Positions 534-54,250 of a stretch of 64,000 nt of DNA are shown here, one piece after another (the stretch's first letter is position 1; every line of letters begins with the position of its first letter). The position numbers and the translations under genes are program-made. Below the pieces are notes generated by a model. The model made no database searches and was not told where the DNA came from. It saw only the letters and a program-made list of their open reading frames with translations. This DNA comes from Nannobrachium achirus (taxonomy: Eukaryota; Chordata; Actinopteri; Myctophiformes; Myctophidae). The DNA lies in assembly GCA_963921795.1 (NCBI GenBank), contig OY997652.1:22463678-22527677 (forward strand), written 5' to 3'.

Positions 534-3500
534 ACAGTATGAGGGGGCTTCAGAAGAGGGTGTGGTCGGTGCTGAATTGCTCCTCCAGAGGCAAGAAGAG
601 GAGGTTCAGCGTCTCCAAGTTCACCTGGCCAACAGGTTGTCCAGGGCCAATCTCTACGGTACAGAGGACCCCCTATCACCTTTACGCACCTCCATGCTGG
701 ACCTCCGGGATCCTCTAAGTACCTCTACGTTACCACACGGCCACCGCAAACCCAAGGTAATAAAAGCAGAAATGATGATTGGTTTCTATCTACATGTGAG
801 TGTATGATTGATTGATTGGTAATGAATATCAAATGACTTGAGGGAGTAAATTTGTTGTCTATAATTGCAGAACTTCTATGGCCCCGAGTTTGTGAAGATG
901 ACCAGTGAGCCATGTGTCAACTTGGCTGTTCCTTCGTCAATAATGGTGAGCGAATTTTTTATTATTTATGATTGATTGTTACGAACCAAATGGACTTGGA
1001 TGTACAAAATTAACACGGTGTAGATAGGGGGTCCCTGAGGTAAAATAAAATGAGGATTTGTAACCTAATGCATATCAAACTGGGGGGTCATTGAAATTAA
1101 CCCATTAAGACCAAAAAATGTCTTCTAAATCCTAATGGTTTTCTGAAAAACGTATGTTTCTTTATCTGTGATGCTCAAACTTTTTAATGTTAAGGACCCC
1201 TAGAATTATATGCATTTGACCGCGGACCCCCGTCTCAAAATATTTTGTCCAGGGACCCTGAGAAAGAAAGATTTGAGTTAAAAATGTTCGCTTAAAAAAT
1301 ATATATTGAAAGATTTGCAATCTAGATTTTTTGAAAATAGCAGATCTACAAGCTCGCAGCTGCACTGTGAGCTTGTATATCTGCTATTTTTTAATAGTTA
1401 AAGCATAAAATAATGGTTTAAGTGGTTAAAATCTAGAGTGACACGGAAGTGTTCCAGGTCTAAATTGGATTTTAAAGAGGTTGAGTCACTGTCTTGGAGC
1501 CCACTTCCCTTTCTCCTCATACATTAAGTTTCCCTCTGTCCTCAGAACAAGCGTGGTAAGGTGGAGGACGTTCCAAGGAAGGTGGGGGTGGTGCTGCTAA
1601 ACGGTCAGAAGCTTGAGCTGAGCTGTGATGTGAAGGCCATCTGTAAAGACGTTCTGGACATGGTGGTGGCTCATGTTGGCCTGGTTGAGCACCATCTGTT
1701 TGGCCTAGCGTATCTTAAAGGTATAAAATGCGTGTGTGTCTGTGTGTGTTTACCCAATTGACATTTTTAGATAATATATATATATTTGCACATTAGTAAT
1801 TTATTTATATTTTTCATGTTTTTAGTTTTTAGATTTATTTTTGGGCTTTATGCAATTAATCTTTAACTCACTTACTGCCAATTTAAAATGCCCCTCGAGT
1901 GGCACTAGTGCCAGAAGCCTCCATAGACTCCCATGTAATTTATAGTGCACAGATCATGCACGCCCATGCACAGTTCATGCACCATGTTTGTGCAGGCTGT
2001 TCACAGCTTTCAAACAAAAAAAAAAGATTGGAAATCCGTTCAGGCATTCATGATTTATCAGCCATAATGTTTTCTTCAGATGTAAACAAAAATGGCTGCC
2101 ATGTTTGAAAGATGGGGTTGTATGGGGGGTGGAACATGCAAAATCGCGATTGAAATCATGTTTACTAGATTTAATTGGGTCCAAAAAAAAAGTAAGTAAA
2201 AGTCGCCCAAAGTCGCTTGGCAGGGAACTCCATAGTGAGAAAGTTGCTCTAAAAGTCGCCTGGCACTGTATGAGTTAAGGTGGTCTCCTCATCTCCCTAG
2301 TGTTGATTTAGTGTTGATTTTGTCTACTAAAACTATGACAAAGTCATAATGTCAAATGTTCCTTAACTACCTTTTTTCATTGACAAAAACTAAGCTATGA
2401 TGACTAAAACTATGACTAAATATATTGATTGAAGAGATCCATTAGAACTAAAAGGCAAATCATTTTATGTTTGGCTACACAGGTCCAAAGTACAAGCTGT
2501 GAGCTTGTACTGTAGATTGGCTATTTTCAGAGTGCAACCAAGTGTAAAATCAGGCATTACGCTGCCATCAAGGCCCACCAAAATACATTTCAGATGACTA
2601 AAATATGGCAAAAATTAAGTTTTGTTCAAAAGACTGACTAAAACTAAATAAAAATTTGCTGTCAAAATCAACACTGTGTCTCCCTGCCTCTGTAGATAAC
2701 GAGTTCTTCTTCGTTGACCCTGACGCCAAACTTTCCAAAGTGGCACCCGAGGGCTGGAAGGACGACCCCAGGAAGAAGAAAGCTGATGTGCTTTTTAACC
2801 TGTTCCTACGGATCAAATTCTTTCTGGACGATGTCAACCTCATCCAGTAAGACAACATGATTACAGTTAGTGGAAATGTCATCATGTGACAAAATGTTTT
2901 AAATCCGTTCCTGCTGAATGTCGAATCATTTACAGCAGGGGTCTTCAACAGGGGGTCCGGGACACCTAGGGGGTCCCCAGAGTTACTACAGGGGGTCCTC
3001 CAAATCTTTGAGTGATAGAAACTTTTCTTTCTCCTTTTTTATATTAACCACTTGAACCCTAGTGTCCATATTCTGAGAACTTTAGCCAAAAATAGCAGAG
3101 CTTGTAGATCGGCTATTTTTGGCAAAGAGCTTTGGTGTAGAGGGGAAAAAGAGCAGACTAAGTACAGAGTGAAAGGTCAAGTTTATTAAGTATTGACAGT
3201 CAAGTGGTTTAATATTTGAAAACACAAATTGACATGAATACAAAATACACAGATGATTGTGCTGTCAAACAATGAAACTATATGGAATCTATGAACAGGT
3301 TGTGGGGGTCCCTGCTTCATCTCTCTCTCAACTAAGGGGTCCTTGGCCTGAAAACGTTGAAGACCCCTGATTTACAATTCTTATGCTTGTGTCTGTATTC
3401 GTTTCAGCAGTTTTGTAGCTAAAGTCTGTTCCAATTGATCCAATTCAGTTATTATTTAGTGAAAATGTCTTAAAAGTGAATAGCTTTCATTGGTTAAATA

Positions 3501-5924
3501 TCTATGAAACCCACAGACCTAACAACTTTGTTCCCTGTTTTGGGCATGTCCTTATTGGAAAATTGTCAATAATTTTACAAAAATAGCAGAGCTACTGTAC
3601 AAGCACTCAACGTAACGCATTGTGATCTTTAGATCAGCAATGTTTTGCTAAGTAAAACAAAATAGGGCATTCATTTTTTTTTTCCCTTGTTTTTTTAAAG
3701 ACAACATATACAATACAACAAAATATCACACTCAAAGTTCAGACAAAACAAAAAAAATATACAATATACTAAAAAAAAAAACACAAAAACCAAAACCTGA
3801 CACTAACACGACACATAAGAATATAAAATAATTATGGTACAAAGAGCACATATAACATTAACAACCAGATTCATATGCCACACGGCCAAACAAACGAAAA
3901 TAATATGAAAAAATTAAATCTGGACGTACAAGTTGTCTTCCCAACAGAGATGATATTTCAGTTTACTTTAATAATGGGGTAATCTGAATGAACAAGTGTC
4001 AGTGAAATGCCTCTTCTGCCCGGCTGAAACCAGGCACACCATGACGAAACACCAGTACTACCTTCAGCTGCGGAAGGATATCTTGGAGGAGAGGATGCGC
4101 TGTGACACAGAGAATGCCATGCTCCTGGCATCTCTGGCACTGCAGGCTGAGTTCAGTGACTATCAAGCTGAGGTACTGTTTTTACATTCCTCATGTTGGT
4201 CAACATCAACTTTATTGTCACATCATAAATTTACAGATGTAAAGCATTTGCAGTTTCAAACATAGCCATAAGAACGGAGAAAGAAACAAAGACATGTTTG
4301 TTAACATGTAGGATTGAGTTGGAAGCAAAGATCTGACTTTTACAAAAGAACAAGGAATAATAGAATTTGATCCTTCTTTCAGCTCCATGGGAAGACGTAT
4401 TTCAGACTAGAACACTACCTACCAGTTTCTGTCCTGGACAAGCTGGACCAGACCACCATGAAGGAGGAGCTACCCAAACTTCACAGCAACTATTACGGTG
4501 CCTCTGAGACCGAGGCAGAGCTTGAATTCCTTAAGGTTTGTACGCCCAACAAGCAAATTAACAGAATTACTCCATAATGAAATCAGTGGAATTGTTGAGA
4601 ATTTAATCTACTTAATTAACCAGTGAAAAATAGCAGATATACAAGCTCACAGCACGCGCTGCGAGCTTGTAGATCTGCTATTATTTTTTATTTTAAATGT
4701 GTGCAAAATCTTTGAATATAATGTATTTTCAAAGTGAACGTTTGTAACTCAAATTTTGCTTCTGGGTGGTCCCTGGAACTAAATATTTTGAGACGGGGGT
4801 CCGTGGCCAAATAAATATAATTTTGGGGGTCCTTCATGTGAAAAGGTTTGAGAACCACTGACATAGTAGTCTCTCAAGAACAGACTAACTGAGCTCCAGT
4901 TAAGTGAAAAGGACCTTTTCTTTGACGATGGCTGGCCAGATTGCTGACATAGAAACATAGGTTTTTCAAAAAACCTTAGAAGGATTCAAAAGACACTTAT
5001 AGAATCGGGTCAAAATTCTAATTTTCACGATTTTTCAAAAATAGCAGATCTACAAGCTCGCAGCTCGGCACTCGGTGCTGCGCTGTGAGCTTGTATATCT
5101 GATATTTTTCAATAGTTAAAACATAAAATAACGATACACTATAATGTGTACCCGTTCTGAATGGGTTAATAACGGAACAACGTTGTATGACGTTTACATT
5201 AGCCATTATAGTCCACATGTTGTTGTTCTTGAAGGTGAGCCAGAGGCTGACAGAATACGGGGTCCACTTCCACCGCGTGCTTCCTGAGAAGAGGTCCCAG
5301 ACAGGAATCATGCTGGGGGTCTACTCCAAAGGGGTGCTCATCTTTGAGGTCCTTAATGGAAACCGAAGTCCAGTGCTAAGGTTCCCGTGGCGGGAGACAA
5401 AGAAGATCTCCTTTACAGTACGTGTTCGTGTTGAATATAGGGATGGGATGATATCACGATTATTGTGACCAAAGAAATTGCGATTTACGATATTATCGCA
5501 ATAATCAAAATATTCCCAACATCCATTATCCTGGGGTGGAACATTTGACAAAAAATAGCAGATCTACAAGCTCACAATTTTGTTGTGAGTGAAACGATTA
5601 TTGTGAGTGTTTTTTAATCACGATAAATGATAAAAGCGATTATCGTCCCATCCCTAGTTGAATATTATTTACTGTCACATTGCCATACATCCCTACATTT
5701 ATAGCAATTCAGTCTGTGAGAAAAATGAAATATTAAAATCCTGCCCTTGTCTCTTCCAAAGAAAAAGAAGATTTGCCTCCAGAACACATCAGATGGGATC
5801 AAACACCTTTTCCAGACAGACAGTAATAAGACCTGTCAGTATTTGTTGCAACTCTGCTCCGATCAGCATAAGTTCCACTTGCAGATGAAGGCTCGCCAGA
5901 ACAACCAGGAGCTGCAGGATCTTG
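534..5924 (+). CDS. ptpn13: ptpn13 exons 1-8: pre-FERM segment and FERM domain
   Basis: Exons 1-2 encode a glutamate/glutamine-rich stretch ([15 protein letters not shown]) and [10 protein letters not shown], as in the mammalian region before FERM. Exons 3-8 encode the FERM lobes: [13 protein letters not shown] (F1), [15 protein letters not shown] and [13 protein letters not shown] (F2), then [24 protein letters not shown] and [14 protein letters not shown] (F3). In the family this module places the protein under the plasma membrane and binds phosphoinositides. The exon 4/5 junction splits a Gln codon (CA|G), which fixes the acceptor at 4034. Introns 3 to 5 carry hAT- and MITE-type repeats. 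No start codon belongs here: the first exon begins with the last base of a codon. Confidence 0.93.
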
Positions 5925-53819: not shown

Positions 53820-54250
53820 CAGGGGTCTTCAACCTTTTTTGCCAAGGACCCCCTAGCTGAGAGTGAGAGGAAGCAGGGACCCCCAATACATCCTGTATAC
53901 AATTATACAGATTAAATGTTTTCATAGATAGCTTCATAGACTTGTTTGACAGCACTATCATCAGTGCATGTTGGATTCCTGTTTATGTGATTTCAGACAT
54001 TTAAACTTTCACTCTGTACTTAGTCTGGTCTTTTTTCCCCCTCTACACCAAACCTCTGCTGAAAATAGCTGCTGTACGGCGTTGTGATCTTGTAGATCTG
54101 CTATTTTCGGCTAATGTTCTCCTCAGAATAGGGATGTTAGGGTGGAACTGGTTAATGTAAAAACAGTTTTTATTACACAAAGATTTGGTGACCGCCTGTA
54201 GTAACTCTGAGGACCCCCTAGGGTTAGGGACCCCCTGTTGAAGACCCCTT
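53820..54250. mobile_element. hAT-like MITE, CAGGGGTCTTCAACC type, second copy
   Basis: Flanked by a perfect 8-bp duplication GCCTAGAT (53812-53819 and 54251-54258). It holds a degenerate hairpin at 54060-54115. It lies in intergenic DNA. Confidence 0.85.

Follow-up and report, generated by a model that had tools for sequence, protein, structure and literature searches.

A palindrome of about 73 bp, with the arm RAAAATAGCMGATCTACAAGCTCACAACG, was found at the centre of many MITE families with different ends in the genome of Nannobrachium achirus. It is probably an old palindromic core which has been carried passively in these families, with few transfers between them. The survey covered a window of 64,000 nt (contig OY997652.1, positions 22,463,678-22,527,677 of the forward strand) and 20 other 10-kb stretches, giving 264 kb in total.

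Copy number and distribution

Search of the window with GATCTACAAGCTCACA (at most 3 mismatches) produced 40 matches versus 0.72 expected from 100 shuffles. A 30-column weight matrix, trained on the same sequences that it scores, identified 25 loci in the window and 106 over the 264 kb at the locus cut-off of a score of at least 13, and 166 arm hits versus 0 in one shuffle at a score of at least 10. The inverted repeat reported in the preliminary description is real, with 25 weight-matrix loci in place of its approximately 30 copies in 64 kb. The arm layout of the 106 loci was +- in 48, + in 27, - in 29 and +-- and +-+- in one each, and the order -+ was found in none of them. The exact 16-base core occurred 158,789 times in the 1.66-Gb genome and its reversed control 0 times, and the number of palindrome loci in the genome is estimated at 0.5-0.7 million. 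No exact match of AGCNGATCTACAAGCTCACAACG was found in viral contigs. The GC content was approximately 41-48% across the surveyed stretches.

Density was 25 loci per 64 kb inside the window and 81 per 200 kb outside it, the latter in stretches hand-chosen, non-randomly, at round coordinates on 16 contigs. The 10-kb bins of the window held 6, 4, 6, 2, 5, 2 and 0 loci (the final bin being 4 kb only), inside the range of 0-9 in the other stretches. A local cluster, formerly placed at 1.3-46.6 kb, was ruled out because the density of the window is in line with that of the other stretches.

Host families

The hosts comprised two hAT families, a further one that duplicates 8 bp of its target, families bounded by TTAA, and others; element lengths were mostly about 165-600 bp. 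Among the 106 loci, 74 had flanks of a named family (41 on both sides and 33 on one side), 9 had TTAA-type ends only and 23 were without a host by the assignment rules, some of these showing further hosts by inspection. All five termini named in the preliminary description were present, and its proposal of a structural centre shared among unrelated MITEs was borne out with more families than it had listed. The elements in the window are as below (window coordinates; strand given for single arms).

1333..1391, hairpin with two arms and F-type flanks
2936..3369, MITE of family B, hAT, CAGGGGTCTTCAAC ends, duplication atttacag/atttacaa
3044..3212, hairpin-bearing TTAA-type element G inside family B; TTAACCACTTGAACC marks its end at 3044, and the far end is degenerate
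3091..3120 (-), hairpin arm in G
4626..4685, hairpin with one F-type flank, probably the first of two hairpins in one F element
5037..5109, hairpin with F-type flanks, TTAACCCATTCAGAACGGG end 60 bp off
5438..5656, family C MITE with TAGGGATGGGATGATA at its ends and GTTGAATA duplicated
5551..5580 (+), family C hairpin arm
8254..8579, inner part of a family E element, left tip unlocated
8428..8467, hairpin with shortened centre, family E
11117..11146 (-), hairpin arm with family A flanks
15363..15435, hairpin with family F flanks
16247..16484, TTAA-bounded element with TTAACCACTT ends on both sides
16328..16380, hairpin within this TTAA-bounded element
18656..18895, MITE of family D, host of the supposedly hostless copy
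18739..18811, family D hairpin core with paired arms over 18731-18819
23000..23039, shortened-centre hairpin flanked by family C sequence
24086..24492, MITE of family A, hAT, CAGTGGTTCTCAACC ends, duplication CTCTAGCT
24330..24389, family A hairpin with ACATGCTCACA in each arm
24667..24696 (+), degraded arm, without host by the rules
27029..27404, element of family E whose right end is near 27404 and whose left tip is not exactly placed
27201..27273, hairpin in family E, paired arms extending over 27183-27291
27863..27892 (-), hairpin arm; its F-type flank carries a TTAACCCATTTAGATTGGG end
28603..28632 (-), hairpin arm enclosed by TTAACTCATATGCTGCCA-type ends, of which one is exact and the other has 2 mismatches
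32934..33014, hairpin with TTAACCACTTCAGCC end only on the left
38535..38599, diverged hairpin with a weak one-sided TTAA-type end
39810..40094, family A copy without hairpin
40501..40877, MITE of family A
40729..40758 (-), hairpin arm in family A
43713..43742 (+), hairpin arm with one-sided A flank
44138..44167 (+), hairpin arm, without host by the rules
45656..45719, hairpin with family A flanks
46525..46554 (-), hairpin arm with one-sided D-type flank
53182..53573, MITE of family A, duplication CACTAGAA
53283..53312 (+), hairpin arm in family A
53821..54249, hAT MITE of family B, with GCCTAGAT as duplication provided that the final end base is counted as changed
54079..54108 (-), hairpin arm, G-type sequence inside family B

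Families A and B showed the 8-bp target duplication and CAGNGG-type ends of hAT elements. The duplication was exact in 2 of the 6 A copies shown, while two of the three B copies had 7/8 and 8/8 matching bases (8/8 only if one end base is counted as changed) and the third 6/8. Both C copies carried target duplications, matching at 8/8 and 7/8 bases. TTAA was present on both ends of 2/2 T elements and 2/3 F elements, and G, T and F are of piggyBac type by a TTAA duplicated at both ends. Overall, A, B, C, T and F combine terminal inverted repeats, a target duplication and a length of a few hundred bp, as MITEs do; family D has inverted ends with an only probable TA duplication, and the left tip of family E was unlocated. 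The hairpin held a fixed place in its hosts. Paired ends enclosed a hairpin arm in 12/12 cases for D, 6/6 for G, 4/5 for F, 10/10 for E (5 of these fetched with a hairpin query) and 13/25 for A, where many copies were chosen for hairpin absence and unselected stretches gave 4/5.

Hairpin structure and changes in the arms

The copies at 18735-18815 and 27196-27278 are true inverted repeats with arms 95% and 85% complementary, respectively. DNA folding of five tested copies gave -24.6 to -50 kcal/mol with z of -9 to -18. Rfam produced no match within the window at the gathering score; for 27000-27420 its miRNA and small-RNA models matched below threshold only. The same deviation was seen in both arms in 53 cells compared to a mean of 20.6 and a maximum of 31 in shuffles that ignore relatedness, the changes stemming from few families; this count took 34 of the 48 +- loci, with loci of less than 60 bp and L026:97 excluded. 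Position -1 was often mismatched, with C opposite A in 10 of the 34 loci. Family-specific changes were present in both arms, and the distance between the arms of one copy (0.147) was similar to that to other copies of the same family (0.145).

Inheritance and possible transfer between families

Arms clustered by family, with a between-minus-within distance of 0.066 versus a maximum of 0.014 in 300 label permutations, and 78.1 of the 110 arms had their nearest neighbour within the family (arms drawn from A, C, D, E, F and G only, one-sided hosts included). The arm distance between C and G (0.17) was the same as within these families (0.16 and 0.17). Since arms group by host family, the hairpin is inherited with its host and crosses families seldom; frequent independent insertion would not give such clustering, which counts against it.

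Sharing of inner flanks extended beyond the palindrome between A and I (26 bp), G and C (30 bp, a weak match with z 4.6) and N and a D-like locus (40 bp), where I and the D-like flank are one locus each. A shared flank of E and T was discarded as it rests on AT-rich sequence. The preliminary description had named descent of all families by recombination from a single ancestral MITE as the case against its proposal; some shared inner flanks agree with such descent, but most compared flank pairs share the palindrome only.

The TTAA-type element G was found inside the hAT family B. At two L023 loci where the right end of B is present (79% and 88% identity), neither G nor the hairpin adjoined it; a pattern test for precise insertion of G in B produced a single match with 2 mismatches, and G wholly outside B was not seen in the six copies shown. 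The nested TTAA elements and the one-sided sharing of inner flanks suggest transfer of the hairpin between families.

Copies that lost the hairpin

Family A had 8,317 exact hairpin junctions versus 123 near-complete losses and family D 20,270 versus 99, counted with bearing and lost patterns of unequal length and without losses that leave more than approximately 15 bases. The commonest loss in A joined CTATT to CTATT (32 of the 100 losses listed out of 123, with 7 of the 32 within 162 kb of C18), and 19/99 losses in D joined TAGT to TAGT. CTATT and TAGT are direct repeats that pre-existed around the palindrome. Most of the near-complete losses have the appearance of deletions between short direct repeats instead of empty sites, and in no family was a precise ancestor without the hairpin found. 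One hairpin-less A copy had suggested that the hairpin entered AAAATATTTT as a clean TA insertion; that copy represents one duplicated insertion with shared outer flanks, and the reading was not upheld because the genome-wide A losses are a spread of microhomology-like joins. In D an ancient TA insertion is possible, as the commonest loss there equals the product expected from removal of a TA-flanked unit.

Origin of the shared core

In the probable case of passive carriage, each family keeps the old core at its fixed internal place and copies it whenever the transposase of the family, acting on the ends of the family, moves the element. Between families the core would have passed on only a few occasions, with the nesting of hairpin-bearing TTAA-type MITEs in other elements and capture together with part of one flank as the likeliest routes. 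Later decay would have come from point mutations and from deletions joining short direct repeats.

An element moving by itself is an unlikely source of this distribution. The preliminary description had proposed a mobile palindrome without a TIR of its own, citing 18735-18815 as hostless; this copy does have a host at 18656-18895, a MITE with flanks found again in other stretches and with the hairpin junction that occurs 20,270 times in the genome. The palindrome could still be, or formerly have been, an approximately 80-bp palindromic MITE with GTGAAAATAGC..GCTATTTTCAC as its ends and TA as its target, having inserted into the founding elements of several families. Families D and E, with TA flanking GTGAAAACAGC / GTGGAAATAGC on both sides, agree with this, but they were the only ones with TA on both sides of the palindrome base among 50 displayed two-armed loci, two-sided TA being missing in F, G, C and, as a rule, A. 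Similarly, the 19 of 99 hairpin-lacking D copies that look like a clean site with a single TA are equally explained by the TAGT..TAGT deletion, and the commonest A loss lies away from a TSD-like border. Reading of the same 50 loci by eye showed no consistent target duplication at the palindrome base and 0 free-standing copies with a target duplication. The two-armed L017:6655 lies in otherwise unmatched DNA, its flanks having no other match in the search, although a missing match is no proof of rarity. With deletion-like losses and arms that track host families, independent movement of the palindrome is not supported by any good sign.

Gene conversion or template switching at the hairpin, with 25-40 bp of arm homology at about half a million places, could exchange the core actively among MITE families, but this is also improbable. 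One-sided flank sharing and a change of sequence at the hairpin base, e.g. in A and I, agree with it, but hairpins cluster by host and exchange must therefore be rare. There was also no clear excess of break-points at the hairpin (family copies crossed it in 25/46 cases versus 44/58 for left-hand and 31/64 for right-hand steps, some tiles being unspecific). The best apparent hairpin-joined chimera, L017:3867, proved to consist of a hairpin element next to an unrelated repeat without a hairpin: 20 of 40 scored candidates were left-only, 19 right-only and none other had both sides; one of two members read of the left family had the hairpin region and one broke off in the first arm, and both members read of the right family were without hairpin there. 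It is doubtful that the hairpin is a functional module which aids MITE multiplication through synapsis, replication or protection, so that gaining families prospered. It is carried by families of several target-site classes, its bearers vastly exceed the losses and its arms changed together between families, though the arms within a copy are no closer; but conversion between arms or a single inverted duplication in the founder of a family would yield the same paired changes, and abundance alone could be hitchhiking. A low probability is likewise given to a transferable amplification module, a selfish palindrome without ends of its own, riding MITEs of several transposase classes and re-acquired by new families as bearers out-compete non-bearers, whose arms would have stayed complementary in the source lineages since pairing aids multiplication.

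Relation to known elements

Angel is a palindromic fish MITE of a single family. The elements found here resemble Angel-type MITEs in being short, putatively non-coding, foldback and of high copy number in fish genomes, but one palindrome here spans many families with different ends. In nested MITEs, one element sits within another, keeps its own ends and is amplified together with it, as G in B, whereas most hosts here share the central palindrome alone without the ends of an inner element. Internal modules that are gained, lost and duplicated, with palindromic parts, also occur in Foldback4 and other modular non-autonomous elements (PMC2955051). In the part of that source available, modules are handled by ModuleOrganizer within one family at a time, whereas the central module found here is common to families of several target-site classes. 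Four 16-base strings had no match in the literature text searched, and the titles and abstract openings among the related papers listed describe no core of this kind.

The ends of a MITE define its family, and the inside is usually taken for filler. The presence of one palindrome within hAT, TTAA-type and other families, at about half a million places in a single genome, indicates that the inside can outlive and cross family borders. This provides a natural test for the effect of internal secondary structure on MITE success, and similarity-built repeat libraries may merge unrelated families through such a core. Finally, the TTAA-bounded G, T and F are like piggyBac-type MITEs, and piggyBac transposase genes were plentiful in the genome (at least 116 PF13843 matches).

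Abundance and structure of the palindrome

The core GATCTACAAGCTCACA produced 40 matches in the window at ≤3 mismatches compared to 0.72 expected. Genome-wide, the exact 16-mer was found 158,789 times (80,229 + 78,560) in 1,658,514,493 bases, while the reversed 16-mer used as a control had 0 occurrences in the whole genome. In line with the preliminary description, one palindrome is common to several MITE classes; this shared core is real and very abundant. A weight matrix made from the arms themselves (control of one shuffle, 0 matches at score ≥10) identified 25 loci in the window, and a further 81 in 20 stretches of 10 kb taken from elsewhere in this genome. 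Extrapolation from this 200-kb sample predicted approximately 191,000 exact 16-mers genome-wide against the 158,789 counted, which showed that the sample is about 20% rich in the core. The 81 loci scale to approximately 670,000 loci genome-wide, or approximately 560,000 once the sample richness is corrected. Hairpin cores covered approximately 2% of the sampled bases.

Alignment of 120 arms with ≤2 core mismatches showed that the conserved zone starts approximately 10 bases ahead of GATC (RAAAATAGCMGATCTACAAGCTCACAACG), and beyond this zone most families had nothing in common. The two inward-facing arms are separated by a short loop, and the DNA folding energy of the five copies folded was -24.6 to -50 kcal/mol. 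Pairing extended outward by a few bases depending on the family, with AGTGAAAACAGC in D, ATAGTGGAAATAGC in E, ATTGTGAAAATAGC in A and TTTGCCAAAAATAGC in G and C. On genome contig G000:C1, four exact arm cores were found in a row at 469826-469964 (spacing of approximately 37-43 bases) and three at 744594-744657 (approximately 22-26 bases), and such rows may mean that the arm can multiply in tandem to form short arrays.

Host families

Host families of the palindrome and their ends
A: hAT, ends CAGTGGTTCTCAACC, 8-bp duplications CTCTAGCT and CACTAGAA
B: hAT, ends CAGGGGTCTTCAAC
C: ends TAGGGATGGGA, duplication GTTGAATA
D: ends TATATCGTCGTTGTCGGG, TA target probable
E: ends GGGCTGTCAC
T, G and F: bounded by TTAA
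I, J, K, M, N, P and X: further hosts, minor or single-locus

The flanks of 106 loci showed a named family at 74 (both sides in 41, one side in 33), TTAA-type ends only at 9 and neither at 23. TTAA-type ends by themselves are weak host evidence because at least one (≤2 mismatches, within 260 bp) was present at 680 of 2,000 random places, compared to 64 of the 106 hairpin loci. A single F element can hold two hairpins, one approximately 60 bp in from one end and the second approximately 45 bp in from the opposite end (sampled stretch L026:2624-3215). Genes for piggyBac-type transposase were common (at least 116 matches, most without stops), which indicated a present or recent source of transposase for TTAA elements here. 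Sixteen such matches, 15 of them without stops, were located on one strand within 0.5 Mb at G000:C2:71.35-71.84 Mb. A B element at L016:5678-6422 was seemingly interrupted by another insertion with AAAGAGGTGGTGCCAT-type inverted ends.

The copy at 18735-18815, previously described as having no recognised host, was found inside a D element at 18656-18895, and the left junction of D with the hairpin had 20,270 exact occurrences. The copy at L017:6655 is a possible free-standing hairpin; a genome search found no other match for its flanks, and on its left there is a GAACCACTTA stretch, which proves nothing. On the same sampled stretch, L017:3867 was considered as a chimera joined at the hairpin and rejected, as it is a family X hairpin element adjoining an unrelated repeat that by eye resembled a LINE. 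At L022:8600-8700, the poly-A tail of a SINE-like sequence (by eye) ended at the A-run of a hairpin.

Inheritance, possible transfer and loss

Hairpin arms fell into groups that follow the host family, and family-marking changes were present in both arms (34 loci). Both arms carried A-to-T at position 8 in 3/3 departing loci and T-to-A at position 11 in 6/6, where independent paired changes are few and the paired-change shuffles ignore relatedness. By contrast, position -1 was often mismatched, with C facing A across the two arms in 10 of the 34 loci. The arm distance within one copy was 0.147 compared to 0.145 between copies of the same family; complementarity was therefore maintained in the source lineages but no longer in the copies that came from them. 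Conversion between the arms, a founder in which one arm was duplicated anew, or selection for pairing would each account for this pattern.

Passage between families was suggested by G (ends TTAACCACTTGAACC), which in each of the six copies shown was located within family B, a hAT (B on both sides in 3, on one side in 3), while the B right end at two loci of L023 adjoined neither G nor the hairpin. A search for the B site as it would read without G gave a single match, with 2 mismatches. Besides the hairpin, A and I had 26 bp of inner flank in common on one flank, G and C had 30 bp, and N and a D-like locus had 40 bp. These arrangements agree with nesting and with partial capture and do not set the direction. 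Overall, inheritance of the palindrome as a passenger of its hosts is the best supported mechanism and a fairly probable one, and self-mobility of the hairpin is unlikely. The most interesting reading is a putative role of the hairpin in amplification. No Rfam family was found in the window at gathering score.

Reduced copies were counted in families A and D. In A, 123 copies had both flanks with ≤15 bases between them compared to 8,317 exact left hairpin junctions. The top class joined CTATT outside the palindrome to CTATT of the far arm (32 of 100 listed losses), of which 7 were within 162 kb of one contig and are possibly local duplicates. D had 99 reduced copies including 19 TAGT-to-TAGT joins, and many of the remaining copies used less overlap. 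Deletion across an inverted repeat would be expected to leave joins of this kind, and they were read as deletions; no clean pre-insertion form was seen in A or D, and the D TAGT class is indistinguishable from one.

The A copy without a hairpin at 39810-40094 is a duplicated segment: its outer flank is found again at several places in the genome, a cluster at C7:12.55-12.85 Mb among them. It adjoins a long (TG)n run at 39600-39738. Finally, an open stretch at 27506-27722 between two hairpin-bearing repeats resembled a PDZ-like exon by eye, which suggests that the window is in or near a vertebrate gene.
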